DNA of 44,875 bases from a virus. Both the position numbers and the translations under genes were made by a program. The stretch is taken from the IMG/VR virus record IMGVR_UViG_3300046009_014020, positions 1 through 44,875 of that record. One strand, given 5' to 3'. This document shows positions 2,673 through 38,605 of the stretch, one piece after another; position 1 is the stretch's first letter; every line of letters begins with the position of its first letter. The notes under the pieces are model-generated. The model ran no database searches and was not told the origin of the DNA. It saw nothing but the letters and a program-made list of their open reading frames with translations.

Positions 2673-3553
2673 AACATCCTGAATTTGCATATTTAGACTT
2701 ACTTAAAAATATTTTAGGTAATGGCAATGATCGATCGGATAGAACCGGTACCGGAACAATAAGTCTCTTTGGCGAACAACTTAAATTTAATTTACAGGAT
2801 GGATTTCCTGCTATTACAACTAAAAAATTAGCATGGAAAGCTTGTGTATCCGAACTTCTATGGTTTATAGAGGGAAGCGGGGATGAATTTAGATTACGAG
2901 AAATTCTTCATGGTCAACGATATATAGATAAAAAAACTATTTGGACAGATAATGCTACAGCACCCTACTGGACAAATAAAAATATACAAAGACATCCTGG
3001 AGATTTAGGAAGGATTTACGGGGTACAATGGAGAAGATGGCGTAAACCTCTAATTAGGATTAATAAAGTTGTCTTACAAAATCATGACCAATTACTAGAT
3101 CTAGTAGAAGGAATCAAAAAAGATCCATATGGGAGACGTCATATTATAACTGCGTGGAATCCTGGTGAGTTGGAGTTAATGGCATTACCCCCATGTCATA
3201 CTATGTGCCAATTTTACGTTAGTGATAACAAGTTGAGTTGTCACATGTATCAACGTAGTGCAGATATGTTTTTAGGAGTTCCATTTAATGTTGCTTCTTA
3301 TGCATTGTTTACACACATGCTAGCACAAGTATGTAATCTCGATGTAGGACAGTTAATCATATCCTTCGGTGATGCTCATATATATAAAAATCATGTCGAC
3401 CAAGTAAAAGAACAATTGAAAAGAAATCCTCTTCCTTTACCTAGTCTTAGACTAAATTCTAATATTGAAAAAATTACAGATTTTACAATGGATGATATTG
3501 AATTAATAAATTATACCTGTCACGATACTATAAAAGCTCAAATGGCAGTTTAA
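2669..3553 (+). CDS. thyA: Thymidylate synthase (ThyA type)
   Basis: The enzyme converts dUMP to dTMP using methylene-tetrahydrofolate, which supplies thymidine for phage DNA and makes the dihydrofolate that the upstream enzyme recycles. At 294 aa it is close to T4 Td. Recognisable elements are RTGTGT near the N-terminus (phosphate loop), GDLGRIYGVQWRRW, KDPYGRRHIITAWNP, the catalytic LPPCH with nucleophile C176, QRSADMFLGVPFN, and GDAHIYKNH. The ATG overlaps the dihydrofolate reductase stop (ATGA, 2669-2672). No intron interrupts it, unlike T4 td. The TAA stop (3551-3553) lies within a TTAA that also holds the stop of the opposing fibre gene. Confidence 0.97.
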   Translation: MKHPEFAYLDLLKNILGNGNDRSDRTGTGTISLFGEQLKFNLQDGFPAITTKKLAWKACVSELLWFIEGSGDEFRLREILHGQRYIDKKTIWTDNATAPYWTNKNIQRHPGDLGRIYGVQWRRWRKPLIRINKVVLQNHDQLLDLVEGIKKDPYGRRHIITAWNPGELELMALPPCHTMCQFYVSDNKLSCHMYQRSADMFLGVPFNVASYALFTHMLAQVCNLDVGQLIISFGDAHIYKNHVDQVKEQLKRNPLPLPSLRLNSNIEKITDFTMDDIELINYTCHDTIKAQMAV

Positions 3554-4782
3554 ATAACTAAAACTTCTATTGTACCCTCTGGTTTATAAAAATCTTCCAA
3601 AGCTTTAGCAAAAACTGACGAGTCTCTATCTTGATCTTTTGCTTGTTCTGCATATCCTTTTACAGAACTAGTAACCAATAAATCTCCTTTAGATATAGGA
3701 CCGATCACTTTACAAGGAACTCTACCTTTCAATGCAATATAAGGATGAGTTTCTTGATTTCCAGCATTTTCATTCATAGCAAAAGCAGGATTAGAAGATA
3801 CAACCCCTATTACTGAAACATTTGCTCTTACATCGGTTGTAGTAACTTCATTAGTGCCACCTATAACTAACACAGTTCCTATATCATATCTATCGTCAGC
3901 ATGATATCTTTCTGCTAAGTCTGCATATTGAGCACTTGTAGCTATCCCTCTAAACACATTTGTATAGATATCTCCATGACTAGTTCTTTGTACTATTGAA
4001 TATGCAATAGTAGAAGTCGAAGCAGTTGAATAATAGGAAATTAAATTTGTGCTTGTACTCGATCTTAATGACGGTGCTCCACCAGACAAAAGTTCAATAG
4101 CATAAGTTGCTGTAGTGGCCAAATCTGCCTTTTTAGCGTGAGAAGCTGTACCCCATAAGATAGTGTTTTCGTTTGTTGATTTTCCATTTGCATCAACATT
4201 CGAAAGTGTAATACCACGTTTAATTACAGGAAAAGTAGGACTCAAAATTGAAGTTGGATTAAATGATTGTTTACTAATAATTACTACCACTTCATTATCA
4301 ATTGTAGCCTGTGTAATCGGAGTTGTAACTGCAACATCTACTCCTGTAGATTCTTCACTGGGTATCCAAGTTGCTCTACCAGAAGCCGGATCAAAAGGTC
4401 CGACACTTTGAAATTGCGAACCATCAAATGCTTTTAATTGAAAGGCATTTTTATCCCACCATAAATCGCCTGTAACTAAAGCAGATGACGGTGGTGTATT
4501 TTCTTGTACAAAAATACTAGCAATACCTTTAAATGATCTTCCATCATAACTTACATTTAATCTACCATTTAATTTGTCAAACCAAAGTTGTCCTCTTATA
4601 GGCTTCTCAGGTTGTGTATCGTTTGAAAAATTCTCTAATAATTTAAGGAAGTTTTCATTAACAACCTGTCCATATCCGGAATAATTTCTTCCAACAAATG
4701 ATAAACTTGTAGAAACATCTAGACTAGCATCATCTACTCTGGCTAATCTTGTTCCATCGGTTTTAAATAAAATATATGGCAT
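3550..4782 (-). CDS. Tail fibre/virion protein, paralogue 4 of 4 in the cluster
   Basis: This 410-aa protein begins with the same module of about 125 residues as its three upstream neighbours: MPYILFKTDGT, then SLSFVGRNYSGYGQ, ENFLKLLENF, GQLWFD and GDLWWD. The C-terminal module starts at YADLAERYHADDRYDIGT, passes through GVVSSNPAFAMNE and YIALKGRVPCKV, and ends in hydrophobic EVLVI. That C-terminal module is shared with the next gene and is common in marine phage fibres. It may relate to trimerising or self-processing fibre tips, but this is unverified. The middle is Thr/Ser-rich beta-type sequence. An AGGT-type ribosome-binding site lies upstream. Its position at the end of the virion operon fits a distal adhesin. 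Confidence 0.75.
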   Translation of the reverse strand: MPYILFKTDGTRLARVDDASLDVSTSLSFVGRNYSGYGQVVNENFLKLLENFSNDTQPEKPIRGQLWFDKLNGRLNVSYDGRSFKGIASIFVQENTPPSSALVTGDLWWDKNAFQLKAFDGSQFQSVGPFDPASGRATWIPSEESTGVDVAVTTPITQATIDNEVVVIISKQSFNPTSILSPTFPVIKRGITLSNVDANGKSTNENTILWGTASHAKKADLATTATYAIELLSGGAPSLRSSTSTNLISYYSTASTSTIAYSIVQRTSHGDIYTNVFRGIATSAQYADLAERYHADDRYDIGTVLVIGGTNEVTTTDVRANVSVIGVVSSNPAFAMNENAGNQETHPYIALKGRVPCKVIGPISKGDLLVTSSVKGYAEQAKDQDRDSSVFAKALEDFYKPEGTIEVLVI

Positions 4783-4791
4783 CTTTTTTAC

Positions 4792-5808
4792 CTATAAAAT
4801 TAAAGCCTCAACTGTGTCACAACCTAAACTATCTGTAAGTGCTATTGCAAAAACTTCTATATGAGGATAGTTTACTCCAATTGCTTTGCCGTTATCTCCT
4901 GCAATTAGTCGTTGTCCTTTTGAGATTGAGCCGTCAACTTTAACCGGCACACGACCTTTTAGTGCAATATATGTTCCCTTATCCAAAGTTTCATTCATCA
5001 TAAATCCAGGTTTTAAACTGACTACACCTATAGCTCGTTTTCCAATAGAACTAGCAGTTACTTCTGCTTCTCCACCTATGACTACTACTGTTCCTTGATC
5101 GTATTCTTTATCTGTCAAATATTTTTCAGCTAAGTCTGCATATCTACTAGCTGTAGCAGTACCTACACCTAAATTAAAATATATATGACCACTCGAATCT
5201 CTTGCTACAACTTTAGAAGGTGTTGCTTCTGTGACAGTTCCTACATCAACTGAAATAGTGGTCGCAGTACTACCATTAAAATTAGAACCAAGAAGATAAC
5301 TACCAACATTTAAGTAATTAGATATAGTAGAGCTTATAGTAATATTGCTAGATCCGTCATACAATACCCCGTTTATTGTTGTAGCGGTAGTTAACCTGTT
5401 AGCGGTTAGACTAGCAACTCTCGGTCCACCTATTACAGTTAATGTTGAAGTATTTTTAATATAAAGTACTTCATTGCTAGTATCCCACCAAAAATCACCA
5501 GTATTCAAAGTTGGTGTAGATGTTGATAAAGTAAAATTAGGAATAGAATTCCACAGAGATCCATTATAAACATTTAACCGTAAAACCGTAGAATCTTTAT
5601 TAAACCATAATTGCCCGGCAAGCGGATTAGCAGGCTCAGAAGAAGACGCAAAATTCTCTAACATATGAACATTGTTAGTATTTTCATATTGCCCATAATT
5701 AATAACATTTTTACCTAACAGTGTTAAGCTGGTAAATGATGTATCTACCTGACCATCTTCTAGTCTTAGAAATAACGATCCATCACTTTTGTATATTGAA
5801 TATGGCAT
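4792..5808 (-). CDS. Tail fibre/virion protein, paralogue 3 of 4
   Basis: This 338-aa protein has the shared N-terminal module (MPYSIYKSDGS, LTLLGKNVINYGQ, GQLWFN, GDFWWD) and the YADLAEKY...GVVSLKPGFMMNE...YIALKGRVPVKV C-terminal module. The centre is a short Thr/Ser-rich stretch (about 130-200), so it is essentially the downstream gene with a different middle. A good AAGGGA Shine-Dalgarno lies just before the ATG, and the spacers on both sides are 9 nt. Virion-fibre identity is inferred from repeat architecture and position; no receptor-binding function can be read. Confidence 0.75.
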   Translation of the reverse strand: MPYSIYKSDGSLFLRLEDGQVDTSFTSLTLLGKNVINYGQYENTNNVHMLENFASSSEPANPLAGQLWFNKDSTVLRLNVYNGSLWNSIPNFTLSTSTPTLNTGDFWWDTSNEVLYIKNTSTLTVIGGPRVASLTANRLTTATTINGVLYDGSSNITISSTISNYLNVGSYLLGSNFNGSTATTISVDVGTVTEATPSKVVARDSSGHIYFNLGVGTATASRYADLAEKYLTDKEYDQGTVVVIGGEAEVTASSIGKRAIGVVSLKPGFMMNETLDKGTYIALKGRVPVKVDGSISKGQRLIAGDNGKAIGVNYPHIEVFAIALTDSLGCDTVEALIL

Positions 5809-5817
5809 ATTAATCCC

Positions 5818-6864
5818 TTAATTTGTCGTTGTGCTAATATAATTTATACCCGATGGTCCAAAAGTAGAAGTAGTATAATAATACGGTTGCCAACTTGCGT
5901 TTTGATGTGTCCCAACTGTTCTAAATACCCTTGCTTGATAACCAGTACGTGCAACTCCATTGATAACACTAAATTTGCAAAGTACTCTAGCCTGTGTACC
6001 TAATAATACACCTGTCATCACTGTACTAGTCGATGTTAATGTTGTAGCATTGACCGGATACATTTGATTTAAAATTTTAACAATTTCTGGATTTTGTTTC
6101 CCTGTAGCTGCATTTATTCCAGTTACAGGATCATAAGTTCCAGAAAAAGCTAAAACATCATTATTAGGAGCAGGACTAATTACATCTATATCAACTCCTA
6201 ATGACAGATAGCTGTTTGAAACTTTACCTTGAACATTTAAATCACCTGTTATTGTCAATCCTGAAACTACAGTAGATGTAGTTGCATTTGGAATAAATGT
6301 AGTTCTATCAGACGAATCCATTTCAAAAGGTAAATCTTGTCCGGTTTCATCAAAATATAACACACCGACTGAATTTCCATATGATCTAAGTAACAAAACT
6401 TCCTTAGCAGCACCGTCTTGATCATTGACCGTTGTTTCGGGTAATGTAAATCCAGAACTTCCAACATATGACGGAAACACCGGACCAACATTGTAGGTCA
6501 CAGTAGATGATACAATTTTCAGTTGTTTAGTAGAATCATCAAACCATAAATCACCTGACTGCAGATCACTAGGTTCTGTTGTACTAATTCTTACAGCACC
6601 TATAGTTTTAAATCCATTATCATATATTTTTAATCTTTTAGAAGTAGTATCATACCATAATTGTCCTGTTAATGGACTTCTAGGAGGATTACCTACAACA
6701 CTGGCAAAATTAGCCAATAATTTTACAAAGTTGTTGTTAAGATCCTGTCCGTAGGAAGGATAATTTCTTCCGATTAATGAAAGACTTGTTGTAGATTTAT
6801 CTACTTGCCCGTCGGCAAGTAGTAGTAAAACAGTCCCATCAGTATTTAAAATTGTATATGCCAT
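5818..6864 (-). CDS. Tail fibre/virion protein, paralogue 2 of 4
   Basis: This 348-aa protein shares the N-terminal module (MAYTILNTDGT, SLSLIGRNYPSYGQ, GQLWYD, GDLWFDD) but not the YADLAE C-terminal module. Its C-terminal half carries different beta-rich sequence ending in YYYTTSTFGPSGINYISTT. The cluster therefore combines one conserved attachment module with several exchangeable tips. It is separated by 1 nt from the gene upstream and by 9 nt from the one downstream, so it belongs to a single transcript. No strong Shine-Dalgarno is visible. Confidence 0.72.
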   Translation of the reverse strand: MAYTILNTDGTVLLLLADGQVDKSTTSLSLIGRNYPSYGQDLNNNFVKLLANFASVVGNPPRSPLTGQLWYDTTSKRLKIYDNGFKTIGAVRISTTEPSDLQSGDLWFDDSTKQLKIVSSTVTYNVGPVFPSYVGSSGFTLPETTVNDQDGAAKEVLLLRSYGNSVGVLYFDETGQDLPFEMDSSDRTTFIPNATTSTVVSGLTITGDLNVQGKVSNSYLSLGVDIDVISPAPNNDVLAFSGTYDPVTGINAATGKQNPEIVKILNQMYPVNATTLTSTSTVMTGVLLGTQARVLCKFSVINGVARTGYQARVFRTVGTHQNASWQPYYYTTSTFGPSGINYISTTTN

Positions 6865-6865
6865 A

Positions 6866-8851
6866 TTATAATTTTATGTAATAAGTTAGATAAGTTGCAG
6901 AACTAAATGATAATACTGTTCCGGCTGGTATTACATCAAGTGTTTGCAATGAAATTGTTACTGTAGAAGCTAAAATACCAGTAACCACGGTCTGATGTTT
7001 CAATGATGCTATACCTTCTACTAATAAATTAGTAACAATACTAGACGTAGAGCTAATACTAATAAACGTACTACCAGAAGATATTAAAGATGTAACTGTA
7101 GTTGCAACAATAGTATTTTTACTAATTAATGTCGAAGTAGTTAAATTTGGAACATTAAATTTACTAGGTCCCGAACTACCATAAATTGTTCCAATTAATT
7201 GAAATAATGGACCAGTGACTCCTGTGGTATCATACTCACTTCCATCACACTTTACCCAACCACCAGATAAAGTTGAAGTAGTTCCAATACCAAATGGCAT
7301 AATCATTCCTGTTGGAAATATACTACTTAAAAAATTATCTCTTGATATACGTTTGAGTGAATTATCGGTTGTTTCTAAAACTAATAAATTCAGTGAAGAT
7401 GTCGAAACTGTAATAGTAGTTTGAGCTGCTATTGCGTCAGGCATTAACGATGTTACGAATGTTGCTGTTGTCGATGTGCCATTATATAATACAGATGTTC
7501 CTGTAATCTGACCTATAATTCTAAATTGTGTAGATTGTTGTAATCCTCTTGCCAATCCATCAAAGGTTCCAACAAATACGGACCCTGTATTACCTACTAT
7601 ATCAGCATAAATTTGTTTAAAGCGTTTTCCAAATGTTCCTATGTTTTGAGTTGCATTATTTTGAGGGATAATATCCGCACCTACAAATAAAGTTCCAGTC
7701 AAAGTAGATGTACCGGCAACATTTATATTTCCGTTAGAGGTAATATTTTTACTTACTGATAATCCTCCAGCTATAGATGTTGCAATGGTTGCTGTAGAAC
7801 TTATTGTGAGAGTATTTGCAACTGTTAAATTTTGAGAAACTGTTGCAGATCCAGTTACAGCCATTAAGTTAGAGCTTACTTCTAGCACTGTAGATAGTGT
7901 TGTACCTTTTACCTTTAAAATTATTTTGCCATTTGAGGTATTATTCAACACAATTGCATCATTATCACCCTTATAAAATTGCACATAATTTGTATCAAGC
8001 AATGATTCTACATTATTAATTACAATCCCGTCTCTTCCTTGAGCAGTTAAAGTATTATTTGTTGATGGGGTAACAAATTTAATCATTCCAGTTACAATTT
8101 GCCCATAACCTGCTTGATCATTTTTACGCAAAAATACACTGGTTTCATAAACATTATCATCTAAATCTACTAGACCTTGGGCAGAAAGTGCTGGACCATT
8201 AAATATCGGAGTTGGTTCAGTATTGGCAACTACACTGGCTAAATTAACACCCGGACGTAAAGTTGTAAACCCATTAATAACAATTTTTGGAGTAAAACTT
8301 TCATTAGATACAATTGAAACTACTATACCATTAACTTTGTTTAAAATTACTTTTCTATCAACATTTGTTGTATCTTTAATTGTAACTGGTATTGCCCCTG
8401 TAGGCTCAGGACCTGCATCCCCAGGCCCTACTAGTGTCCATTGATTACTATTCCATATTTTAAGTTGATTAGCTGCGGTATCTACCCAAATATCCCCAAT
8501 TTTTAATCCTTGAGTTTGCGAATCTGCAGGATCATTTCCTTGCTGATATATACCATTAGCATTAGGCCATCTTGTAGCTGTGGCTGTGCCATCCATTATT
8601 TTCAATACTTTATTGTAGGGATCACTGGTATCATACCACAACTGCCCTTCAATAGGATTTTCTGGAGGTAAAGGACTAGCAAAGTTTTCTAGTAATCGTA
8701 CAAAATTTTCTGCAATTTTCAGACCATAATTAGGATAACCTTTACCAACTAAACTTAAACTGGTATCAACAGTATTAATTCCCGGAGGCATATCCGGAAC
8801 TGTAATTTTATCAAGTTTGGACGGATCTGAAAAACTAATAGTGTATGGCAT
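6866..8851 (-). CDS. Tail fibre protein with phage collar domain, paralogue 1 of 4
   Basis: At 661 aa this is the longest of the four paralogues. The shared N-terminal module is present (SLSLVGKGYPNYG, ENFVRLLENFASP, GQLWYD, GDIWVD). The middle has a beta-rich shaft with SIAGGLSVSKNITSNGNINV-type segments and IGTFGKRFKQIYAD. Near the C-terminus is a tail-collar signature: MIMPFG, GGWVKCDGSEYD, LFQLIGTIYG and KFNVPNL, matching the Phage Tail Collar family. This suggests a distal receptor-facing fibre related in its tip to T4 gp12-type proteins. The gene follows the 220-aa structural gene by 2 nt. Confidence 0.8.
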   Translation of the reverse strand: MPYTISFSDPSKLDKITVPDMPPGINTVDTSLSLVGKGYPNYGLKIAENFVRLLENFASPLPPENPIEGQLWYDTSDPYNKVLKIMDGTATATRWPNANGIYQQGNDPADSQTQGLKIGDIWVDTAANQLKIWNSNQWTLVGPGDAGPEPTGAIPVTIKDTTNVDRKVILNKVNGIVVSIVSNESFTPKIVINGFTTLRPGVNLASVVANTEPTPIFNGPALSAQGLVDLDDNVYETSVFLRKNDQAGYGQIVTGMIKFVTPSTNNTLTAQGRDGIVINNVESLLDTNYVQFYKGDNDAIVLNNTSNGKIILKVKGTTLSTVLEVSSNLMAVTGSATVSQNLTVANTLTISSTATIATSIAGGLSVSKNITSNGNINVAGTSTLTGTLFVGADIIPQNNATQNIGTFGKRFKQIYADIVGNTGSVFVGTFDGLARGLQQSTQFRIIGQITGTSVLYNGTSTTATFVTSLMPDAIAAQTTITVSTSSLNLLVLETTDNSLKRISRDNFLSSIFPTGMIMPFGIGTTSTLSGGWVKCDGSEYDTTGVTGPLFQLIGTIYGSSGPSKFNVPNLTTSTLISKNTIVATTVTSLISSGSTFISISSTSSIVTNLLVEGIASLKHQTVVTGILASTVTISLQTLDVIPAGTVLSFSSATYLTYYIKL

Positions 8852-9547: not shown

Positions 9548-11215
9548 TTATCTTCCAAATCTACTGATCGATGAACGAGGAAAAACTAAACCTTTACTAG
9601 GTCTAGATTTATTTGTATTTTTAGGATAAACTGCTCCCTCTTCTTTTCGCTCTTTAACCCATGCTAAAAATTTATTAGCTGCTCCTTGCAAACTGATATA
9701 ATCTGTATAACCTCCATTGGTGGCATAAATCTGTCCAGTCTTTGCATAGTTTATTACATAATCCCTGGCTTCACTCTGAGTCATTCTAGGATATAATTCT
9801 AACATACAGGCTAAGACACCGGCTACTTGGGGAGATGCCATACTTGTTCCGGGAATTTTGTTATAGTAATAATTACCGTATTGTTGTCGTTTTATATCTA
9901 AAACAGCCCCTCCAGTTAAATTTAACCAACTACTTAAAATTGCTGTTCCTGGGGCAAATAAGTCAACTCGAGGACCACAATTGCTGTAAGTTGCTTTTCT
10001 ATCATCAAGATAATTGTCTATTGCTCCAACACAAATAACATTTGGTGCAGCCGCGGGACTACTACCTCTATTATAATAATAAAAAATATTATCTATAAAA
10101 AAACGATTATCATAATCTAATCCATTTGGTACATCTATCTTAACAGATGCATTGCCGGCTGCACCTACAAATATTACTCCTTCGTTTTGAGCATCTACAA
10201 TATCAGAATCAATTGGAGTATATCTGCTCTGTACTTGAATATATCCAGAATAGGTACCGGATGTAATTAGAGGACCCATACCATAAGAATTAAGTTGAGC
10301 CACAGTAAATGGTCCAGTATATGTAGTTCCCCTATATTCTAACGAAGTAATTGATGCAGGTAATACATAATTTCTAAATCCAAAACTCATGTTTACTATG
10401 GTGGGTTTTTTAATGCCTGTGTTTGGGTTTACCGGTTTATTTTTATGGAATACTCTAATAAAATCAATCAAAAATGCAGATTGAGACGTTGTAAGATAAG
10501 CATATAAATTATAAATGGTTGATTTTTTAGCCCATCCTTGTCTATTACCAGATACAGTTCCGGCAACATGAGTTCCATGATTATTATTAGCTACTCTGGC
10601 TGGATCCAAATATGGTCCATAAACATATGAACCGGGAGAAGGTTCTCCATAAACTTCTTGATAATGTTGATTCCAATCATATTGAACAACTCTAGATCCC
10701 CCAGATCCATCTTGATTCTCTGCAAATTCGGGATGAGCAGAGTCAATAAATCCATCAACAATTACAACATCTACATCTTTTCCTTCATTTAAAATTTCAA
10801 ATGTAGGATACAATGCATTTGTCGACCAATTTGTTGTTCCAGGTATATAACCCCATCCTGTAACTTGTTGTCCTAACCAACATCTGTAAATACCCCAATT
10901 AAAATGAAAAGGATTAGGATTTAATTGTTTTGTAAATGCATTATCCGGATCTGTATATAGATGTGCTGGTTCTATAATCATTCCTGGTAAACCGGCAGCT
11001 AAAGTCACACTTTCAACACGAGAATCATTTCTTATCTGATTAGCTTCTTCATCAGTAAGATAATAATGTGTATTTCTGCTAACAGGCCTACGATGGGCTA
11101 AATCTACTGATCTATTAGGAATATACAAATTTCCACCAGGAGATTCCATATCTTGATAAAATTGATCAAGAAAATCGTAACTTTTGACAGTAACAATATA
11201 TTCTTGTAGATTCAT
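9548..11215 (-). CDS. Subtilisin-like serine protease (S8) with I9-like propeptide
   Basis: This 555-aa protein has a complete S8 triad: D154 in VIVDGFID, H213 in NNHGTHVAGTVSG and S458 in GTSMASPQVAGV, with the oxyanion Asn N355 in GAAGN. Residues 5-75 resemble an inhibitor-I9 propeptide (EYIVTV... then LTDEEANQIRNDSRVESV), so the enzyme probably matures by self-cleavage. There is no secretion signal, consistent with action in the host cytoplasm on virion proteins or as a virion-borne enzyme. The C-terminal 50 residues are basic. A GGAGAG Shine-Dalgarno precedes the ATG. It lies between the collagen-like fibre and smaller fibre proteins, so fibre maturation or digestion of host surface protein are both plausible. 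The family call is firm; the substrate is unknown. Confidence 0.92.
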   Translation of the reverse strand: MNLQEYIVTVKSYDFLDQFYQDMESPGGNLYIPNRSVDLAHRRPVSRNTHYYLTDEEANQIRNDSRVESVTLAAGLPGMIIEPAHLYTDPDNAFTKQLNPNPFHFNWGIYRCWLGQQVTGWGYIPGTTNWSTNALYPTFEILNEGKDVDVVIVDGFIDSAHPEFAENQDGSGGSRVVQYDWNQHYQEVYGEPSPGSYVYGPYLDPARVANNNHGTHVAGTVSGNRQGWAKKSTIYNLYAYLTTSQSAFLIDFIRVFHKNKPVNPNTGIKKPTIVNMSFGFRNYVLPASITSLEYRGTTYTGPFTVAQLNSYGMGPLITSGTYSGYIQVQSRYTPIDSDIVDAQNEGVIFVGAAGNASVKIDVPNGLDYDNRFFIDNIFYYYNRGSSPAAAPNVICVGAIDNYLDDRKATYSNCGPRVDLFAPGTAILSSWLNLTGGAVLDIKRQQYGNYYYNKIPGTSMASPQVAGVLACMLELYPRMTQSEARDYVINYAKTGQIYATNGGYTDYISLQGAANKFLAWVKERKEEGAVYPKNTNKSRPSKGLVFPRSSISRFGR

Positions 11216-11216
11216 A

Positions 11217-12431
11217 TTAACTCTCCAATTGTACCATCGTTAACGATACAGTGATAGATCTGCTGTCTGGACTAGTATTAGTAATTTTTAGATAGGTGCT
11301 GGTAGTTACAGGACTATCATTGTTAAATCCAATTATTGCCGGTGTAATCAGTTGCGTCAAACTTCCAGATGTGGTTATAACTTCAGCTATAACACCTGCT
11401 CCTAATGCTGGATCAACTCCAATTGACCGTGTTAGGTCAGCAGTTCGACTTGCTCCGTCAGAATAAATTACTACCCAAGATGCTGTACTTGTAACAATTT
11501 TTTGTAACGCATAAGTTTTAAATGTACCAACAAATGTAGTAGCACTTGTACCTGCTGACAAAATATTAGTAGATGTTGAAAAAGTCACTCTTGTACCTAG
11601 ACCTGGTCCAGAACCAGCAGCACCACTATATCCACTTGCACCTGAATAGCCACTTCCACTATATCCACTTAAACCAGAATATCCACTTAGACCAGAATAT
11701 CCGGACAACCCAGAATAACCACTAATACCAGAATATCCCGACAAACCAGAATATCCACTTAGACCAGAATATCCACTTAGACCAGAATATCCGCTGATAC
11801 CAGAATAACCACTGATACCAGAATAACCACTATCCCCCTGAGCAACAGCACTACCAGGCATTCCACTATATCCACTATACCCGCTATATCCTGCGCCGCT
11901 AACTCCACTATATCCGCTTAAACCAGAATATCCACTTAAACCACTAAAACCACTACCACCCGAGTATCCGCTAAATGCAACTTGACCCGGTAATCCACTG
12001 TAACCACTAAATCCACTATAACCTACACCGCTAAAACCACTAGTTCCACTGAAACCACTGCGGCCACTGAAACCACTGATTCCAGAAAACCCACTATCTC
12101 CTTGAGCTACAGCAGTTCCCGGTAATCCACTGTAACCGCTAAATCCACTGTATCCACTTATTCCGCTAAATCCACTTATTCCGCTAAATCCACTTATTCC
12201 GCTAAATCCCGAAATTCCTGAGTATCCACTATAACCTTGAGGACCACTAGGACCACTAGGACCAATCGGGCCAAATGGACCCATAGGACCACTAGGTCCA
12301 GATAATTGTGTACTCAATGAATTAATTAGGTTGTTATAATTTACCCGTCGTGTGAGTTGATCTTTTGTAACAATAAAAAACGTGTCACTGGTTGCTGTGC
12401 TGATAATTGGTAGTTGTGTAACTTGCGGCAT
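11217..12431 (-). CDS. Collagen-like tail fibre protein
   Basis: This 404-aa protein has three parts. Residues 1-44 are an N-terminal attachment segment (MPQVTQLPIISTATSDTFF). Residues about 45-273 are an uninterrupted-looking Gly-X-Y region. The last 130 residues are a beta-rich C-terminal head. The first Gly-X-Y triplets are proline-bearing (GPSGPMGPFGPIGPSGP). The rest are almost entirely Gly-(Tyr/Phe/Ile/Leu)-Ser, broken by short GLPGTAVAQGDSG-type inserts that recur twice. Collagen-like shafts form trimers in phage fibres, so the head is probably receptor-facing. An AAGGA Shine-Dalgarno precedes the ATG. The gene sits 1 nt after the giant structural gene. Confidence 0.85.
   Translation of the reverse strand: MPQVTQLPIISTATSDTFFIVTKDQLTRRVNYNNLINSLSTQLSGPSGPMGPFGPIGPSGPSGPQGYSGYSGISGFSGISGFSGISGFSGISGYSGFSGYSGLPGTAVAQGDSGFSGISGFSGRSGFSGTSGFSGVGYSGFSGYSGLPGQVAFSGYSGGSGFSGLSGYSGLSGYSGVSGAGYSGYSGYSGMPGSAVAQGDSGYSGISGYSGISGYSGLSGYSGLSGYSGLSGYSGISGYSGLSGYSGLSGYSGLSGYSGSGYSGASGYSGAAGSGPGLGTRVTFSTSTNILSAGTSATTFVGTFKTYALQKIVTSTASWVVIYSDGASRTADLTRSIGVDPALGAGVIAEVITTSGSLTQLITPAIIGFNNDSPVTTSTYLKITNTSPDSRSITVSLTMVQLES
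11610..12299 (-). repeat. Gly-X-Ser triplet-repeat tract in the collagen-like gene
   Basis: About 229 codons repeat Gly-X-Y, mostly as Gly-Tyr/Phe/Ile/Leu-Ser, giving a 9-nt period and frequent near-identical 18-nt units. Such a tract can expand and contract by slippage or recombination. Confidence 0.85.
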
Positions 12432-12432
12432 T

Positions 12433-15400
12433 TTATAATCCTTCTATTGGGTCATTATTTTCATCTGTTAATGCTATTCCACTTCCTAAAATTAATGAAC
12501 TAACTTGACCATAATATGACTGATTAGGAATTTCAGAAGGTCTACTCTGCAAAAATAGTGCAGGTGCAGTGGTGCTTTCTAATATAGACTTAGTCGAACT
12601 ATCAGTTATTTGATTATTCCAAAAATCGGAACTATCAAATACTTTTTGTGTTACAACTAATCTTACATTTTCCGTCAATCCATCTTTAATATTTAACGTA
12701 ATGTTTTGAACCAATAAGTTTCTATAATTTGATTCTAAATTTAAATTACCTACATAGTTATTATTAGCCAAACTATTATATATGGTCACATCATTAGCGG
12801 TTATAACTCCATCACCGTCGATATCATATAATAAGTCAACGGGTAAAGTACTGCTGACAATTTGACTGGCTGTGGTTGCATATAAATTGGCTGTATTTGT
12901 ATTAATACTTACGGTTATACTGAATTCTGGTTCATTGTAATCAAGTCCTTTGTATATCCAACCATTAATTGCGTTTTCTTCTGCCGATCCAGTATAAACC
13001 CAAATTTGATTTGTTGCTGTGACAATGTAAGCATCATTGATATTTTGTGTAATTGGTAATTCAGCAGTCGTAGCAGTAGTACCTAAAATGTTGGCTTCAA
13101 TACTATCAAATCCAAAATTATTGTTATGGGTAATAATTGCTGCTTTTCTTAATTTTCTTCCTCCATAATAAACTTCAATTTGATCAATTGGATTTATAGT
13201 AGAGGTAGTAGAGAGAATAATCCCTTTATTAGAAATTTGATCACCTGCTAAAGTCGCAGTCGTAATATAATCTACAGCACTGATATTAAATGTAGAAATT
13301 GTACTAGTTGTAATTAAAATTGTTTGTCTGTACAAATATTCATTAAATGGAATATTTTGATCAGGACTTTGATCTACTACTTTTGTGCCTATATTAAGAT
13401 TATAACTAGGCCCTGTACCCAGTGTAGACCTACGAAGTTGTTTTAGTACATTACCATTTATTTCAAAAAATTCTATTCTTTCTCTATCAATTAGAACTAC
13501 ACCGGGAATTTTTTTACTAATCAATGGCGGTGTTAGTATACTAGCATCATCCACATGTATTTCACTATCGGTGAAAAATAACGGTTTCGTTAATACTGCG
13601 GTGTTACGCTTCGACAGTCTCTTATAATGTGTTCTATTAAAAATATCACTAAAAATTCTATACCCTAAAGTTGTTTCGGATAATGGATTAGATAGTAAAG
13701 TTGTAATTACAACTGAATTTGCCGATGTCAAATGCCATTGGCCTGATAGCTCAACTGTGATTTCATCGTCTAGTACATGGAAATCTAAAGAATTTCTTAA
13801 CACAATCCCGTCAACTGTAACCCAAACATAATTACTGTTCGATATAGGTCTACTTACTTTAAATCTTCTATTAAGATTTCCTCTAAATGTTTCAGTTCTA
13901 ACAGCCATATCATCATGATTATTGAATGTAATAATCTTTAGAATTGAATTCGTAATAGGAGTTGTTAATCTCAAAATATTATTTTGTATATCAAATTCAG
14001 CAGCAGGAGTCGATCCAAAGGGTTTTCCTAATACTGCAATTACATCATTTAATTGTAATAGCCCCGGACGAATTGAAATTTTATTTGAAACATTGTTTAA
14101 GGTCCATTCTCCTGCATACAGCAACTCTCTGCCATTAAGATAAACTCTTACCAAATCAATTGAGTATGATGCAGGAGCACGAGATATATTATTATCTATG
14201 TCATAATCTAATACATTTAAGTCTGTCACTTCATAATAAGATATTATAGGAGGCTGCAATCTTCTATATCCACTACCGGTGTCCAATTCTACTATAATAT
14301 TTCCTGCTGCAGGTTCAATTAAACCAGGAGGTTTATCAACAATAAACTCTTGTACAATAGATGAAAGATCTACATTATAAATTTGCTCATAAAATTCATT
14401 AAAATATTTGTTTTCTGAACCAAAAAACCATGCTTGCACAGTGTTGACTCTATCCGGATCAAGATTATAAATTTTAGCAGCAGCACTATTGGGCGAAGCA
14501 TCACTAGTATCAAAAATATAACCTAGAGTACTTGTGTTCACTGTTGTTAATTTTGGTATTGCAACACCATTTACTGAGACATAAGCACTTTTGACTGTTA
14601 GTGTAGAATTAAAACTAACTAATTCAGCAGTAGTAGATCCATCTTCTACGACCTGAATATCTCTATCTAATACCCCTGCTTCAATATTTTCTCTGCCGCC
14701 ACCTATTGAAACAACCGTATACCCTAATTTTCCTTGAGTCGATTGTGGAGCAACAACTAATTTATTATTAGCCCAATCATAGGTAAAGTATTCAGAATCT
14801 TGAAATAATGATGAAATTGTTTCTACATAACTGAATATCTTATTATCATACGAAACAAAAATACTTGCAATATTAGGAGGTATAAATGCTAATGTTGCTG
14901 ATGTTAATACATTTGCATAAATGTCTATACTACCATTATACACTGTAGGAGCACCTTGATTAAATCTTGTATAGACATTAATTCCTATAGAATCATGAGC
15001 TTCCCCGGGTACTAGTTCCTCTGGAGCATAACTGGTAAATGGAGTAATAAATCCATCACCGTCTATAATGATTTCTTCAGGATTTACTCCTAGTGCACCG
15101 GACAATGTATTCGTTGTTGTATTCCACGACCCCCCATCTATTACTGTATCTAATAAACTAGAATTAGTTGAATATGTCCAAAATTCAACTGTTGCAGTAT
15201 TTGTTACGGTTGTAATGGTATTTTCTACCCCTGATATAATAATTGTACTAGTACTTAAAATATTTTGTGTAATAGTTGAACTGAATTTTACTCTATTAGT
15301 CGATGTATAAATTGCTATAACTTTTACATCTTTGTTAGGATTTAAAATTTGTGTATTAAACAGTGTTTGAGTATTTTGAAACTTTGTTGCACTTAATAAA

Positions 15401-18400
15401 TTTACAATCTGTCCAACTGCTACTCCACTTGTTGTAGAAAGAGATACTGTATCTGTCCCAAAAACTATAGGAGCAGATACTTCAATTTTTGTATAGTAGT
15501 CTATACCTTCTGCGTATACACTTTGCCCAAATGGAGAATAAGATACATCCCAATCAGTAGTATAATCAAATGGTAAACCCTGTAAACTTGTACCGGGATA
15601 TTCTATTCCAGACATTAATTGAGGTAAATCAGCACCTGGCATCCCAATATTTGGATGATACAGTTCAATTATTCGTTCAACTGCATCAAATAATTTGATG
15701 TTTTTATAATATCTGACTTCTAGAATTTGACCAAAAGATGGCACGAATTGAGTAAACACTATATCAGAAAATGATTTTTTATAACTATTATATTCCTGTT
15801 CATATTGTTCTATAACAAAATCAGCACCTAATACCAAATCTCCATCCAAAAAAGTGGAAACGGTAGTTTTATCATCATTAATAAACCAAGATAAAGTAAA
15901 TCTATTCGCACTACCGTCACAAACAAATCTATCTACAATTTGTTCATTATTTAAAATTTGTTGTTTTTTAATTCTATCAAATTTTATACCGATTGTATTA
16001 GTTCTAATTTTATTGTTTTCTAACTGTGCATATGTAACTGCAGGAACTAATTCTGTATCCCCCCCTCCTGTTAATACAACAAGAGGTGCAATTCTATATC
16101 CTGATCCTTTGTTAGTTAATTCAATTTTACTTATTTTACCAGAAGTAATATATGCAATTGCTTTTGCTCCAGAACCCGAATCACCAGGCTGCGTTACGAT
16201 AGTTACTTGAGGAGGAATTGTATATCCAGATCCCCCATCTCCAATTATAATTTCTCCTACTTCGAACAAATGATTATCATTCCAAGCCTTATATGGTTGT
16301 TCTAGTAACAATGGATTATCCGATTGAACTGTTTCAAATTTATTAGAGTTTTCATTGTAATAGCTTGGCAAATCAAAATCTGTAAAGAAACTATTAGATG
16401 GCTCAAAGACTTCATGACTTGCTGTGAAAGTTCTAATCTGAGAATGATAAGGTTTTACTTCTTTAAGATAAGCTTCATAATTAGTAGCATCTTGAAATTT
16501 ATATACTGGAATTTGTTGTAATTGTCCTGCATAATTTATTACATTAATAAACGAAGTTTTGAATGCCCAATCTAATAATTTTTGTTCAGTTAGTGCATAC
16601 TTTACTGCCTTAAAGAAAAATAAATTCCAATTAACTTTAAGTTCATTAATAAACAAATCTTCTTTTAGTGCTGTTAGAATATATCCTAGTTCTAAATCTG
16701 GAGTTTGATCATATAATGTTTGATCAAAACTGTTGTTCTGATCAAATCCTAGATCAGTATTAATCGAATCCCAAATTTTATTTGAAATTTGAATTGTGCC
16801 GGATTCACTATATACTAAGTCAAATCCCTTACCAAACGTACCTAATGTTTCGTTGGATTTTTTAACAATGATATATTTGCCTTTACCAGAATTTTTAACT
16901 TTAACATATTGTCCAGGAATCAAATCCTCCAAGCTATCCAATTCAAATACTTGATTGACAGTATATGTGTAATCAACAAATTCGTTATAGTCTGATGATT
17001 TCCAGTCTACGTAGTTCCAATACAAAGGTGTATTATATTTTTGAGTCTGTTTTCTTTCCCAATCTCTGTTTAAACTATTCCATTCAAACTTTGTCCATTT
17101 TCCATTGTACAAATTATCTGCTAGAACTATAACAGAATAAGGTCTTACAAAAAGATTAGGTACTTCAGCAAAGTTACTGCCCTTTTGTCTTATAGTAACA
17201 TTAATTATAGACCCATTTGAATCTATTTCGGAAGACAATTCTGCAGTAGTATCATTATCACCAATTATAATATTCGGTGCTATTTTATAACCGAATCCGG
17301 CATCTAAAATTGTAATACTTTCAATCTTTCCATTTAATATTGAACAAGACAACCTAGCCTGTCTTAAATATCTTGTATCTATTAAATTTAATCCTTCATT
17401 ATCCTCAACGACTTCATCAAATTGCCCTGTAAATTCATCTGGAGGATTTTCTTGTTTGTTCAAATTAACAAAACTATAGTTGTCTGTAATTTGATTTTCT
17501 AAAAGTATACTATTAGCAAATTCAGTTAATTCGCGTAGAGCCGACTTTCTATCTTTAAAAAGTGTTTGTCTCGGTCTAATACTAATACCATATCTAGTTC
17601 TCTCACTTAAGGCAGGATCAGGAATTATATTTCCTAAAGAATCTTTTCCTAAAAGACTATCAAATAATTTTTTATCATACAATACAGGAGGCATACTGGT
17701 TGCAGAACCTTCTTCTATTAATGCCCATTCTGTATGCTTAGGAATTTTGTTCTTTATAGTATCAAATGCCATGTTGAGATGTATTCTTTTATCAATTAAC
17801 AGTGGTCCAACATTTGATAATATTACTGCATCTTTACTGATTGGAGCCGCATATCTAATTCCATAAGTTGTAGGATCTGCTATAATATTTGCAACCTGAT
17901 ATGCACTTATTCTTCTATTTTTATTAGCTGGTACAGTAACTTTGTTTTTTACCCAGAAATAATAAACATTGGTAAAACTATTACTGACTGAATTGTAAAT
18001 TTGTTTTACAGAGATACAACTATTATCAACATATTTAGGCTGACCGCTTGCTCCTTCTGTTAATCCAACATTTGTGTCAGCAATTTCTAACCACTCTGAC
18101 GGCAAATAACTACTTCTTACCCATTCATAGACATCTATTGTAGCGCCCGGAAATGTAGATCCCCAATTATTTTTTCTATATGTGAGATCACCCTGCTCAT
18201 ACCATATATATTTTATGGTACTTAAATCCCACCATAATTCTCCTAAGTGCTCATCTAACCAACTTGTATCATTGTCTACAACTACTCCGGCAGTACCTAT
18301 GCTGTAAACAGCAGGGTCATAAGCAGATTTATATCGTATTTCTTGCTCTGCTATTCCGGCAATTTTACCTTTTACAGGATCTATAATATCTAGATAATCT

Positions 18401-21400
18401 AAAATAGTTTCATCAAAAGTATTAATTAATCTTGTTTTTTGGATAGTTTCAATATCTACTACATTTTCCGACGATCTATATATATCTAAATTATTTCTGT
18501 TTCTATCAATTTTATTATATTGATAAAATGAAGATGTTGATATAGTAGATAGACAAGGAGAACCAACGTACACAGTGTTATTATCTATAGCAATACTGTG
18601 ACCAAAATTAGTTCCTTCTAATTGTTCATTAAGAGGAGGCGAAAGTTCTGCAGAAAGCACAAATCTACTGCCATTGGCAATCTTATCATATAGATAAACA
18701 GTACCGAAATTTTCTACTACATCATAAAAAGATGTACTACTTGAATCGAAAGAAGTTACATTTGAGTCGAAAACAGTTGGAACATTATTATTTCTTCCGA
18801 TTGCGCTAATAGCTAATGTAGAAGTTGTAGCATTAATTTCTAATTCTTGACCAAAAAACAATCCAGCATTAGACACCGGATTAGAAATTACTGTAGAATA
18901 TGTAAATGTAGATCCATTCCTTACGAAAACTGAAACTTTGCCAAACGAATCATCCTCATTTTTAATAAAGGGCGTTCCTACAAATAGATATTCTGCGTCT
19001 TTACTAATCGCAACAGATTCTCCAAATCTAGAATTACTATTAACTGTAAATGATGTTGCAGTTAACTGATATCTAATCGGTGTATTAGAATCAATATCAA
19101 TAAACACTTCAACATAGTTTTCGCCCGGAGCAGATATTACAGTAAATTGGCCGTCTTCAGAACTGACTATATTGTAACCAAATTCGTCTCCTACAACCGG
19201 AGTTTGAGCAGTTAAACTACTAATATAGGTTGTAATTAATCCATTAGAACTTGTATTAATATTGTTTGTTGATAAAATAGTAGAGGTGTTATAAAACCTA
19301 ATTGAAGAATTTTTAGGAATATCGATAGGTAACAGAGAATTTATTGTAATATAACGTGTTATCGAGTCATCGTATATGGTCGAAACTTGAAAACCGCTTA
19401 ATACATCATTTAGTACACCCGGTACCCAAACTGTTTGACCCAATGCAATCGATGAAGTACTATCTATGTAAATTAAAGATGTTCCAACAGTAGCAGTCGA
19501 AACAACTGTATGTTTAGCGATAGGTAAAATATTTTGATAAAGATAAACTTTGCCACTATTAGTATTAGCTGTGCCAGGAGCACCTATAGCTAATAAATTA
19601 GTGGTTTCATTAACATTTATACTGGCACCAAATCTTTCATAAGACACATTTATCGGGCTTACCAAAATAATTTCTGCGTTATCCTTTAGAATAATAGGAT
19701 CAATACTAGAAATCTTTACAGCACCTGTATAAGTAGATGCTTGGATAGGAGCTACATCTAATGCATATCTCAATGTAGTCCCGGTTGTGGCTAAATTTCC
19801 TATAGCAGGAGCACCTGCATAAAGTAGTCCAAAATTTGTCCCAGCCAATTGCTTACTATTGTATGTTACCGAATAACCAAACTCAGTAATACCAGTCGAT
19901 GTATGATATTGATTGATTCCACTATTCAGTGAATATGAAAGATATCTAGATGATCCTTGCTCTTGTCTAATAAAAAGATATACTCTACCAGTATCTATTA
20001 TATTTGCAAATCCCGGAGAACCAACTAGTATCACATTACTCTTATCATTTTTATGTAATGAAAATCCGAATTTTTCATTAGGTAGTGTTATTCCTGACAA
20101 ATTCTTTTTAGTATTGTAGTTAAAAAACTTTCTATATACTTTCCAATCAAAACTACCATCTACAGATTGATTATCTATCCAAAAATTACTATTAATTTCT
20201 GCCTTAAGCATGTCTTTATCGTTAGGCAGTTGATCGAATGTTGCAAATCTAGCACTTGCAAATTTATAAAGTAATCCGGGTGACAGAAGTTCTTCATTTA
20301 GTATAGTAACCAAGGTACTATCTACTGTAATTTGATTTAGTCTTGGAATAGATCTTACAACATAAACACCATTTACCTGATCATTAAAGTTATTAATAAT
20401 AATAACTTCACCTACTTTTAAATTATGAAAGGTATCAGTTACAAACGTAATAGCAAGACCGGGAGCATTAACAAATACACCGACTATTTTTGAAGTCTGT
20501 ATTGTATATCTTAAAATATCCCAATCTCCATTAGACTTAAATCCTAACCAAAATATATCACCATTATTAATTGCTTGTGTGTTTGCTATGTCTAATAGAC
20601 TATTTTCATTATATGCTGTTGCAGTTATATCCTCAAAACTGACATAACCGGCAGTAGGAAATCTAAAAATATTAGTAGAGGTAGTTAAAAATGTTTCTAA
20701 AGGATTATAATCTTCTAATGTTATGAAGAAATTTGTTGAAGTAGAATAATAAATTAAATCAATAGGATTTATTGGTTTTTGATTAACAAAATTAATAACC
20801 TGAGGATTTTCTATAAATGTACCTTCCTCTAATCCTATTTCTAACTCTTCGTATGACGAGTACGATCCGTATTGTCCTAATCTTAAAGCCCATTCTTCAT
20901 TATAAGAAAGTTCTCCTTGAAGATTAAAAACGCTGGCTTTTGACATTTTAGAAATAGAATTTTTTGTTCCTTTTTCTTTTATAAATCCCTGATAAAATTT
21001 ATATTGACTTATAGGATTTATAAAAATGTTGTTCATATATACTCTAGGAGTATATCCAACTAAATGTTGTGCCATCTTTTGTTGTGCAGCATCAAAATTA
21101 TCTATGTCAATACTATAGAAATCTTCAAATTGATTTATTTTATATTCTAAATTAGGTAGTAAATCTTGTGTTGGTTTTTCATTTAGTAAAACCCAATTGT
21201 TAAAATCAAAAGTAGTTGATGCTGTAACATTTTGTTTAGCAGAGTAATAATTCCCGTTATATCTAACTGTATCTCCATAAAGATAAGTGGTGTATCTTTG
21301 CCAATCTCTTACTATAGCTGTATCAAAAAGAAATCCAGGGCTAAAATAATCTCCGTTCCAATCTTTTGTTCTAAATCCTATTAATTTTACTCTACGTTGT

Positions 21401-24400
21401 CTATAGCCAGTTTCAATTTCATATATTGTATCATTAAAAATTGTGGTATTATCAAATACCATAGCATGTTCTTTTTGTACAGAGCTTAATTGCGCAAAAT
21501 ATATACCTTCTGTAGTACCTATTGTTTGAATAGTACAAATTCCATCAATGCGATTTACATCCAATCCTTTAGGAGGAAATGGGGTTCCGTCTGCTTTAAG
21601 AATACTGTATTGATAAAAATTATCAAATATGTTATCTACAATACTATATGGATAAGTGAACTTTATTTTATTTGCAAAAGGACTTAAAGTAATAATACTA
21701 TTTTCTGCCCAATTTTGTGTTGTCCAATACAAAAATTCTTTAGCACTTAAATTAAAATCTACAATTTCGTTTAGATCACTGTTATAATCATCAAAAATAA
21801 ATCCTTGTTTTTCTAACCACTTACCATATCCGATTATTAAATCATATAATTCCTGAATAGACGAATATTCTGTGCCATAAGGAATCTGTATTTCGTCTGT
21901 AAAAAATCCGTTAGCTATCTGAACATTTACTCCACCTATGATTGGCAATCTATTCAAAATTTGAAAATTGTTAATATTAAAAGTTGATCCAGCTCTATGA
22001 CTTACTTTTACTCTATAATATTTTTGTTCATAAAATACAACCTGTCCCTGTCTGTAAAAATTACCTGCAATAGGTTCAACCGAAGTAGTAGTTTCAGAGT
22101 CAGTTAAATTAGTTTGACCACCGTCCTGAGAAGGTTCCCATCTTACAAAAGGTTCAGATATGCCTCCTACATTTATAGTAGGTGTAAGAGAATTACGTTT
22201 TGGAGAAAGTACGGTAAAATAAGGATAACTAGTGTCATAACCTTTTACAATAAAGTTTCCTTGAAATTTCTGTATTATAATTCCAGATATATTAGTTATT
22301 TTTATAGGATTGCTAGTGTTAAGTACAAGTTGATAATTTTCAGGTGGTAAAATTGCACCAGAACTTTTGCTAGAAGGATCTAATGCATCAATTACAATCT
22401 GTAGTTTATTTTTGCTAACAAATCCGCCAACTTTATGAAATAAATTAATATCGACAAATTTTAAATCATCTTCTAATTGATTTACATAATTACTTGTTCT
22501 TTGTAATCCATATTCTACTATATAAGAACTATATCCAGCAGTAATAATATCATTTCTACTATGAATTTCAGTATTTTTTAAATTTAAAAATTCATAATTA
22601 TCACCATAAGTCCATTGACCGGCTATATTTTTTTGTGTTCTGCTAGTATCATACATTAATGAACAATATTTTGCAGGTTTGGTTAATGCTAACAGTCTTT
22701 GTACTGCAAAAGGCCAATAGCTACTTTTTCTCCAAGAAGTTTCTGCTGGGCTGAAATCTCCAAATTTCCAATTCTGTCTTATATTAAATGGTTGTATTCT
22801 TGTAATTAAAGTATTAGGATCAACTAAATTTCCAAATTCATCTACCGGGATCATTTCAGATAACTTAGGTCTAGCATAAAGAATGTCAATACCTGCTCTA
22901 TCTCCATGTCTAATCAATCCCTGTTCTAGATCAGACCATAAAATATCATTACCAGATGTACAAGGTACCGGACCATATTGATCTTCCCACCAGTCTGGCT
23001 GTACAGTAAAACCTAACATTTCCCATGGATGAGTATTTGGTCTATCGGTATCATAAAAATATCTGTATAGAGCTCTCCAACTTCCATTAACTGGCATATC
23101 TAGAGCTTCAATATAACTATCCTTATAATTCCATGTGAAAGGTTCTGCTAAATCAAAACTTGTATTTTGAATATAATCTACATTGTAAAAAGATGACCAA
23201 CGAATAAAATCATTTGAAAGAATTTGATTTACTTCATCTAAAGAATATTCATTTGTTCTAAATGCTCCCGATAACACCGAATGAATATCAAATAGTTCAG
23301 ATCTATAATTTGTTTTTATATTATTAAAAATTCTTTTTTCGTATTCTAAAATAATTAAATCTCTGAAATCATTATATGCGACCTGAATACTTCCATCATG
23401 GCCTTGTATCACATAGGTAGGTTCTATATAAGAACTGTCTAAATATTTTTTTGGTTCATATTTAGGATAAAGACCTAATTTAGTAGGTGTGCTAGGTACA
23501 TATGAACCTTTAGTACTAAAATAATCTTCAACTCTTAATTGATCCCCTTTTTGCAATTCACATAATAATTCTATACTTGAATCGTTTACTAAAAATTGAT
23601 AATCTTTATCAATTAGTAGTTGTTCATTATTAAGATAAACCAGCACAGCTCTATATTGTGCCTTATTAGGATCAAAATCATCTGATATAGGATAGATTAC
23701 ATTTCTTGTATCTGACACAGTCCAAGTTCTAGTAGTACGATCTGTTGCGTATGGTAACATATCAGTATGAAACCATGAACTATTAATATCTTTATCTGCA
23801 TTAATCGAAGTTAAAATTATATCAAGTGCAGCAATTGGATCGTTTATATCACCTAATTCAGATATTTTTTTATATAAACTAAACTTAAATTGATTATATT
23901 GATCTGCTGCAAACTGTAAAGATTTGAATAAACTATGTTCTTTTATTGGTATATAAAAACTACTGAATGCTACAGAATTTGCATTAGAAATTAATCTAGT
24001 TCCGTATTTGTTTATATCTGGTAAATCGCGTGTATTATTACTACCAAAAGTTTGTCCTATAAATTCCGGATGACGATCAGTCATTGTTCTAAAATGATCA
24101 CTAATTTCTGTCAGTGTTAAAGAAGATATAGGACCATTTAGTGGATTATTTGTAAGATTTAAAGGGGTTTCATACTGTCCATCAACAGTCAAATTGTTTT
24201 TGTAAAAATAAATTTTGATAATAATGTTATCATCAATAGTAACAGGCTGTCTTGTAAATGTAACAGTTAATTTTTGTTGAGCGTAGAATGTATCATAATT
24301 TTCTTTTAGAATTTTGACATCATTAATATAAACATCAAAATCAAACTGCTCGCTTGTAGGATCTTCTATTGCGGTAATTTCAACTGAATTTGTTTCCGGT

Positions 24401-38559: not shown

Positions 38560-38584
38560 CTTTAGGTTTTCAGCCCTGTAAAAT
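38556..38584 (+). promoter_or_regulatory. Sigma70-type promoter of gp47/gp46
   Basis: TTGACT (38556-38561), a 17-nt spacer and TAAAAT (38579-38584) match the host consensus at 5 of 6 positions each with ideal spacing. The -35 element contains the gp55 TGA stop. The start would fall near 38591, just before the gp47 Shine-Dalgarno. Confidence 0.7.
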
Positions 38585-38592
38585 TTTACAGG
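38575..38592. repeat. 18-bp perfect palindrome over the gp47 -10 and ribosome-binding site
   Basis: CCTGTAAAATTTTACAGG is a perfect inverted repeat. Its left arm covers the -10 element and its right arm includes the first bases of the gp47 AGGAG. In read-through RNA from gp55 it would fold and mask that site; in RNA starting near 38591 the left arm is absent. Confidence 0.75.
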
Positions 38593-38605
38593 AGAAACTT
38601 AATCG

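Follow-up and report, generated by a model that had tools for sequence, protein, structure and literature searches.

The window, that is, the whole 44,875-base stretch of viral DNA analysed here, encodes an intact S8A subtilase immediately behind a collagen-like fibre gene. The C-terminal domain (CTD) of this fibre recurs across many loci of aquatic phages, and in nearly all of the loci that we scanned the gene following it encodes either a subtilase (S8) or a protein of one other family, termed ADH. On balance we lean towards a reading in which the S8 protein is an active zymogen carried at the fibre end by the CTD, where it would cut host surface proteins during adsorption. The argument draws on the following features of the window:

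9548..11215, minus strand: S8A subtilase, 555 aa (complete ATG ORF; PF00082, triad alignment, structure model)
10994..11215, minus strand: N-terminal domain of the subtilase, residues 1-74, I9-like propeptide by predicted topology (model, homologue conservation)
10901..10993, minus strand: low-confidence linker, residues 75-105 (pLDDT <50 in the model)
11217..12431, minus strand: collagen-like fibre protein, 404 aa, the cognate partner gene of S8 (Pfam Collagen, E 1.3e-28; GXY runs)
11217..11612, minus strand: CTD-A, proposed protease socket (phrog_15343/phrog_9627, alignment, model, gene pairing)

The preliminary description had reported a complete subtilisin-like protease at this locus, with the residues D154/H213/S458 and N355 all present. 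Both statements were borne out. The 555-residue frame opens with ATG and matches PF00082 (Peptidase_S8) with an E-value of 2.4e-32 and 112.9 bits, against a Pfam cut-off of 21.8 bits; it is the sole S8 match within the record. phrog_9158, a PHROGs family of unassigned function, covers residues 4-550 (E 9e-102), and the matches returned for the protein by Pfam and PHROGs comprise only S8, phrog_9158, a protease family and a tail-fibre family. D154, H213 and S458 form the catalytic triad and N355 is the oxyanion Asn, arranged in the S8A order and accompanied by a GTSMA-type serine motif. In an alignment of 35 homologues, which includes the window protein and spans about 25-50% identity to it, H213, N355 and S458 are found in 35/35 and D154 in 34/35, the exception being S-CAM1, which has no alignment at that site. 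Among a further 53 distinct complete S8 proteins, collected from the CTD side, the Asp and His are present in 53/53 and the Asn and Ser in 52/53, the single exception being the truncated 346-aa ORF of locus L124. Such constancy of triad and oxyanion residues at about 25-50% identity predicts a working enzyme whose activity is probably under selection, and the intact frame together with the conserved residues rules out a chance or broken ORF.

The fold agrees with this assignment. Proteinase K is the best sequence match among solved structures (E 6.8e-14). The structure modelled from 14 homologues (mean pLDDT 69.6, pTM 0.79) aligns from residue 103 to about residue 525 with 5wsl, aqualysin and proteinase K at Z 31-34; for the catalytic part, the comparison with keratinase 5wsl gives Z 33.8 and rmsd 2.3 over 270 aligned residues, and that with aqualysin 4dzt gives Z 33.4 and rmsd 2.4 over 266. 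Taken together, profile, residues and fold confirm that the window protein is an intact S8A subtilase.

Residues 4-72 are modelled as strand-helix-strand-strand-helix-strand (pLDDT about 67-88 by ten-residue block), an order which we take to be the I9 propeptide topology. The N-terminal domain is kept in homologues, and 51 of the 53 complete proteins carry an SRNT motif or a close form of it. An I9 propeptide is common among S8A subtilases, though not universal. The Pfam I9 profile gave no match even at E<=10 in the 14 members scanned, and a PDB profile search found no I9 structure. The I9-like propeptide proposed in the preliminary description is therefore supported by fold topology and not by a Pfam I9 or PDB profile match; residues 1-74 are taken as a putative I9-like propeptide from topology and position. 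The linker at residues 75-105 is the probable region of propeptide cleavage. By crude hydropathy, the N-terminus contains no strongly hydrophobic stretch and no evident signal sequence.

The window protein shares with the secreted subtilases of the proteinase K/aqualysin type the triad, the GTSMA motif, the catalytic fold and the predicted I9-like N-terminal topology. Unlike them, it has no signal peptide by the same crude hydropathy and is encoded in a tail-fibre cluster beside a fibre gene, and its relatives carry long insertions and extra domains.

On the same strand, the S8 gene is flanked upstream by the collagen-like fibre gene, with the S8 start 1 bp downstream of the fibre stop, and downstream by tail-collar and fibre-like genes, so its earlier placement inside a fibre operon holds. 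The GXY runs of the fibre lie between residues 45 and 261. The collagen stretch (window 11650-12300, minus strand) consists mostly of GYS, GFS, GIS and GLS with little proline, which is unusual for a collagen-like helix. Directly upstream of the fibre gene lies an ORF of 4,639 aa (12433-26352, minus strand), which has relatives in the same place in related contigs such as L002, L003 and L009 and no match in NCBIfam. Four fibre-like genes in a row at 3550-8851 (minus strand) share an N-terminal phrog_14394 match; two of the four share C-terminal matches to phrog_6427 and phrog_22593, and there is a sub-threshold match to Peptidase_G2 (IMC autoprocessing) in 4792-5808.

The CTD comprises the last ~125 residues of the fibre and is conserved across loci, whereas the N-terminal part of the fibre differs: some of the stalks preceding S8 are collagen-like as in the window, and most are not. 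The CTD is modelled as an all-beta domain of eight main strands (mean pLDDT 92.1), which suggests a jelly-roll-type fold. The best Foldseek match of the model is a viral turret protein (E 7e-4), and the best match in a second look is a phage cement protein (Z 7.7, rmsd 3.2, 102 aligned). A subtilase beta-domain, that of Tk-SP, also appears in the second-look list (Z 7.0, rmsd 3.2, 94 aligned) and is a lead only. Since Z values under 8 may reflect only a common arrangement, we assigned the CTD to no family.

We examined the pairing of CTD and S8 from both sides, using a CTD-A profile built from 16 genes upstream of S8 and a CTD-B profile built from P-SSM2, S-SCSM1 and S-T4. Among the 35 S8 ORFs, three have no upstream ORF in their stretch. 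The upstream neighbour of the other 32 is a CTD-A gene in 25 cases, a CTD-B gene in three (P-SSM2, S-SCSM1 and S-T4), another S8 gene in three and neither in one (S-TIM54). Conservation of position in relatives, which the preliminary description had suggested checking, is therefore seen in 28 of 32, with S8 behind a CTD-A or CTD-B gene. From the CTD side, a scan of viral contigs with S8-adjacent CTDs as query (best 80 of 580 confirmed matches) gave S8 as the next gene in 74 cases and ADH in six. The corresponding scan with ADH-adjacent CTDs (best 80 of 566 confirmed matches) gave ADH in 78, another gene in one and a cut contig end in one, and a scan of bacterial contigs gave six loci, all in metagenome-assembled bins, with S8 next in 6/6. 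Over the three scans together, the next ORF could be read behind 165 CTD genes; it is S8 in 80 and ADH in 84, which makes 164. A stricter S8-core profile recognizes 77 of the 80 S8 ORFs that follow a CTD; the remaining three are cut short or weak.

The shares of S8 and ADH in these scans are biased and carry little meaning: the queries had been built from genes adjacent to S8 or to ADH, matches beyond the best 80 of 580 and of 566 were dropped, and many of the contigs are almost identical to one another. What counts is that a third passenger class behind the CTD is nearly lacking. CTD-B genes within the scan sets are followed by S8 in 11/11 cases. Viewed from S8 in these sets, the gene follows CTD-A in 77 cases, CTD-B in 11, another S8 in three and nothing in one (the ORF fragment in L124), and in four the contig is open on the 5' side. 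Contrary to the pairing rule, weak CTD-like matches in the cyanosiphoviruses S-CRES1, S-CBS2 and PSS2 have other genes next. Two phages combine both passengers: ACG-2014i carries the CTD at two sites, of which one precedes an ADH gene and the other, judged by position, precedes S8, and S-SCSM1 has a CTD-B/S8 pair (gp145/gp144) and a CTD-A/ADH pair (gp141/gp140).

The passengers themselves vary. ADH members occupy the place of S8 behind the CTD in L041 (6353-8179), L042 (6305-8602), L043 (6379-8349) and L048 (8369-10699); these four proteins of 608-776 aa have no match at all in Pfam. The ADH of Sf-CH1b includes a stretch that was judged plastocyanin-like by eye; this stretch matches the last part of the S8 PHROG profile. 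Among the proteases, S-SCSM1 S8 carries Laminin_G_3 domains, L002 has a YHYH domain C-terminal of the protease, L078 and L091 have a plastocyanin-like domain in that position, and in L019 to L022 several hundred residues are inserted close to query residue 300. Tandem S8 genes, each with long insertions in the catalytic domain, are found in L019 (5274-11305) and L021 (5090-10479). In S-BM3 (L041 1-3391), another annotated S8 peptidase lies inside a very large ORF, two small genes upstream of the CTD fibre gene.

We then asked which part of the fibre the passenger follows, using a tree of 141 distinct CTDs (129 columns) that came from a quick search and has many unresolved forks. On this tree the passenger type changes 3 times. 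The stalk cluster, defined on the first 60 residues of the fibre by single linkage, which lumps stalks together, changes 10 times among the S8-type rows. As judged from these changes, the CTD is tied more closely to the following gene than to the stalk of its own fibre.

The module appears to cross phage lineages. The preliminary description had drawn a comparison with T4, which proved loose, as the core genes of the window are nearest to those of PA5oct, Phosso and Atu_ph07. The SbcC-like gp46 is nearest PA5oct-like Pseudomonas jumbo phages (50.5%), the late sigma factor is nearest PA5oct-like phages (43.5%) and the baseplate wedge protein is nearest Phosso and Atu_ph07 (36%). The late sigma factor and the gp47/gp46 genes lie at 37651-41400 on the plus strand. 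Judged by the late sigma factor and gp46, the window probably represents part of a jumbo myovirus, and its identification as a T4-like cyanophage was dropped, with all three of these proteins nearest jumbo phages. The S8 protein, in turn, is nearest Synechococcus phages: 44.7% identical to that of Sf-FR1 and 26% to that of Phosso, which sits elsewhere, behind a 119-aa ORF by annotation. When 20 chosen contigs with the CTD module, all of them fragments, were compared with the window baseplate protein, nine gave a strong match (E 3.4e-115 or lower), five only a weak one (best E 5e-10 to 7e-9) and six none. The CTD module is thus spread over at least two phage lineages, as would be expected if it had been exchanged between them.

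Subtilases have been noted in cyanophages before. A tblastn search with the S8 protein against 50,697 phage records gave 52 records with a match, 44 of them named Synechococcus, Prochlorococcus or cyanophage, and several of the matching cyanophage records are annotated 'subtilisin-like serine protease' or 'peptidase'. The S8 proteins of S-CREM1, S-H38, Sf-FR1 and S-WAM2 are 34-45% identical to the window protein over nearly the full length and have CTD-A upstream in all four. By comparison, P-SSM2 S8, whose gene is noted as PF00082, matches by tblastn only at residues 190-490 (34%) and has CTD-B as its partner. These cyanophage carriers infect Synechococcus or Prochlorococcus, whereas the core genes of the window are nearest jumbo phages. 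The closest published statement that we found concerns an S8 peptidase gene cluster in P-HM1/P-HM2 (PMC3037559). Given these annotations and this cluster, an S8 gene among fibre genes is not new. The CTD-S8 pair itself did not turn up among the titles and abstract openings listed by our searches of the open-access literature, a silence that counts for little; the pairing may be undescribed in print.

Evidence from virions comes from S-SCSM1, whose S8 is a divergent relative of the window protein (33% identity over residues 187-491). Mass spectrometry of CsCl-purified S-SCSM1 virions detected 45 proteins (PMC9602691). In the genome record, gp145, gp144, gp141 and gp140 are all tagged 'virion protein'. 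We counted 47 such tags by eye (16, 14, 0, 12 and 5 per stretch, lowest coordinates first), so the tags do not correspond exactly to the 45 detected proteins. The tagged genes include NMNAT, which is discussed as an unexpected virion protein in the same study (PMC9602691), and several classical structural genes are untagged. The tags therefore most likely mark detection in virions, though the numbers differ by two. For the closer relative S-CREM1, 14 virion proteins were identified by mass spectrometry (PMC9964418), a set that may or may not include the peptidase. For PSS2, a term search in the main text of the virion paper gave no hit. The presence of S8 in virions is thus indirectly supported, through the record tags of one relative.

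Based on these observations, we propose that S8 would be transcribed and translated together with the upstream fibre gene. The zymogen would fold with its N-terminal I9-like domain and bind the CTD at the end of the fibre trimer; processing in the linker would then release the N-terminal domain, and the enzyme would ride on the virion. On the host, the protease would cut a surface protein during adsorption, so that the receptor may be reached more easily. The physical mounting, the co-translation, the release of the zymogen and the substrate are elements that we infer. ADH can fill the place of S8 behind the CTD, which suggests that the CTD may serve as a socket for interchangeable tips. This organization resembles that of T2-type phages and Salmonella phage S16, in which the gene for gp38, a protein with a poly-glycine II sandwich, lies directly after the fibre gene, just as the S8 gene of the window directly follows its fibre gene; the likeness seen here is one of gene order. 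The gp37-gp38 tip of these phages is a separate tip protein on the end of a trimeric fibre, and gp38, unlike S8, is a glycine-rich receptor-binding protein and not an enzyme (PMC12892980). A hub peptidase of A-1(L) was rejected as a different enzyme located in the baseplate hub.

The preliminary description had offered two roles for the protease: it might process fibres, or it might be borne on the virion and act on host surface protein. The latter is now the better supported, by the S-SCSM1 tag, by the occurrence of both S8 and ADH in the CTD slot and by the lectin-like or other extra domains. Under the former, S8 would act during assembly, much as prohead proteases act in heads, by cutting the CTD fibre next to it or other fibre proteins, and its presence in the particle would be incidental. 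The constant adjacency of S8 to one fibre gene speaks for such a maturation role, and proteases of this kind may remain detectable in particles, as illustrated by the prohead core protein protease found in S-CREM2 virions. Like the T4 gp21-type prohead protease, the window S8 is a phage serine protease encoded among structural genes; the gp21-type enzyme is S77-type (PMC7824862), and the S8 protein has no match to the prohead protease family in the Pfam and PHROGs scans. However, the CTD also occurs with ADH, including the four members lacking a Pfam match, which argues that the CTD needs no cutting by S8, and a surface role agrees better with the lectin-like, YHYH and plastocyanin-like domains that some proteases carry. 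We therefore regard maturation as unlikely.

Alternatively, the protease may act in the infected cell or at lysis and lie among the fibre genes through late transcription only, consistent with a protein that is made in the cytoplasm and, by crude hydropathy, has an N-terminus without strong hydrophobicity. We give this little credence, as S8 is paired with one domain across gene contexts and phage lineages and its S-SCSM1 relative is tagged as a virion protein. A purely structural role, with the S8 fold serving as a binding tip and catalysis unimportant, would be in keeping with the ADH proteins, which hold the same position elsewhere with no protease match, and with the large insertions inside the catalytic domain of some relatives. 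Triad and oxyanion residues that are nearly invariant across very divergent members argue against it, and we find it very improbable.

Beyond the window, the preferred reading of a fibre-borne subtilase extends to a broader proposal, which we hold tentatively and find slightly easier to doubt than to accept. In aquatic myoviruses of separate lineages, a small jelly-roll socket on many unrelated stalks would receive a subtilase zymogen in some phages and an adhesin-like protein in others, the subtilase would trim host surface proteins, and the module would pass as a unit between jumbo phages and cyanophages. Phage fibre tips are known to act by binding or by degrading polysaccharides. A fibre-mounted protease, if true, would represent a different way past a surface layer made of protein. 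With the pairing rule, the fibre tips of uncultured phages can be found and named, the gene behind the CTD being the passenger, and cyanophage genes now annotated 'hypothetical' or 'peptidase' become the subject of a claim that may be tested in existing isolates.
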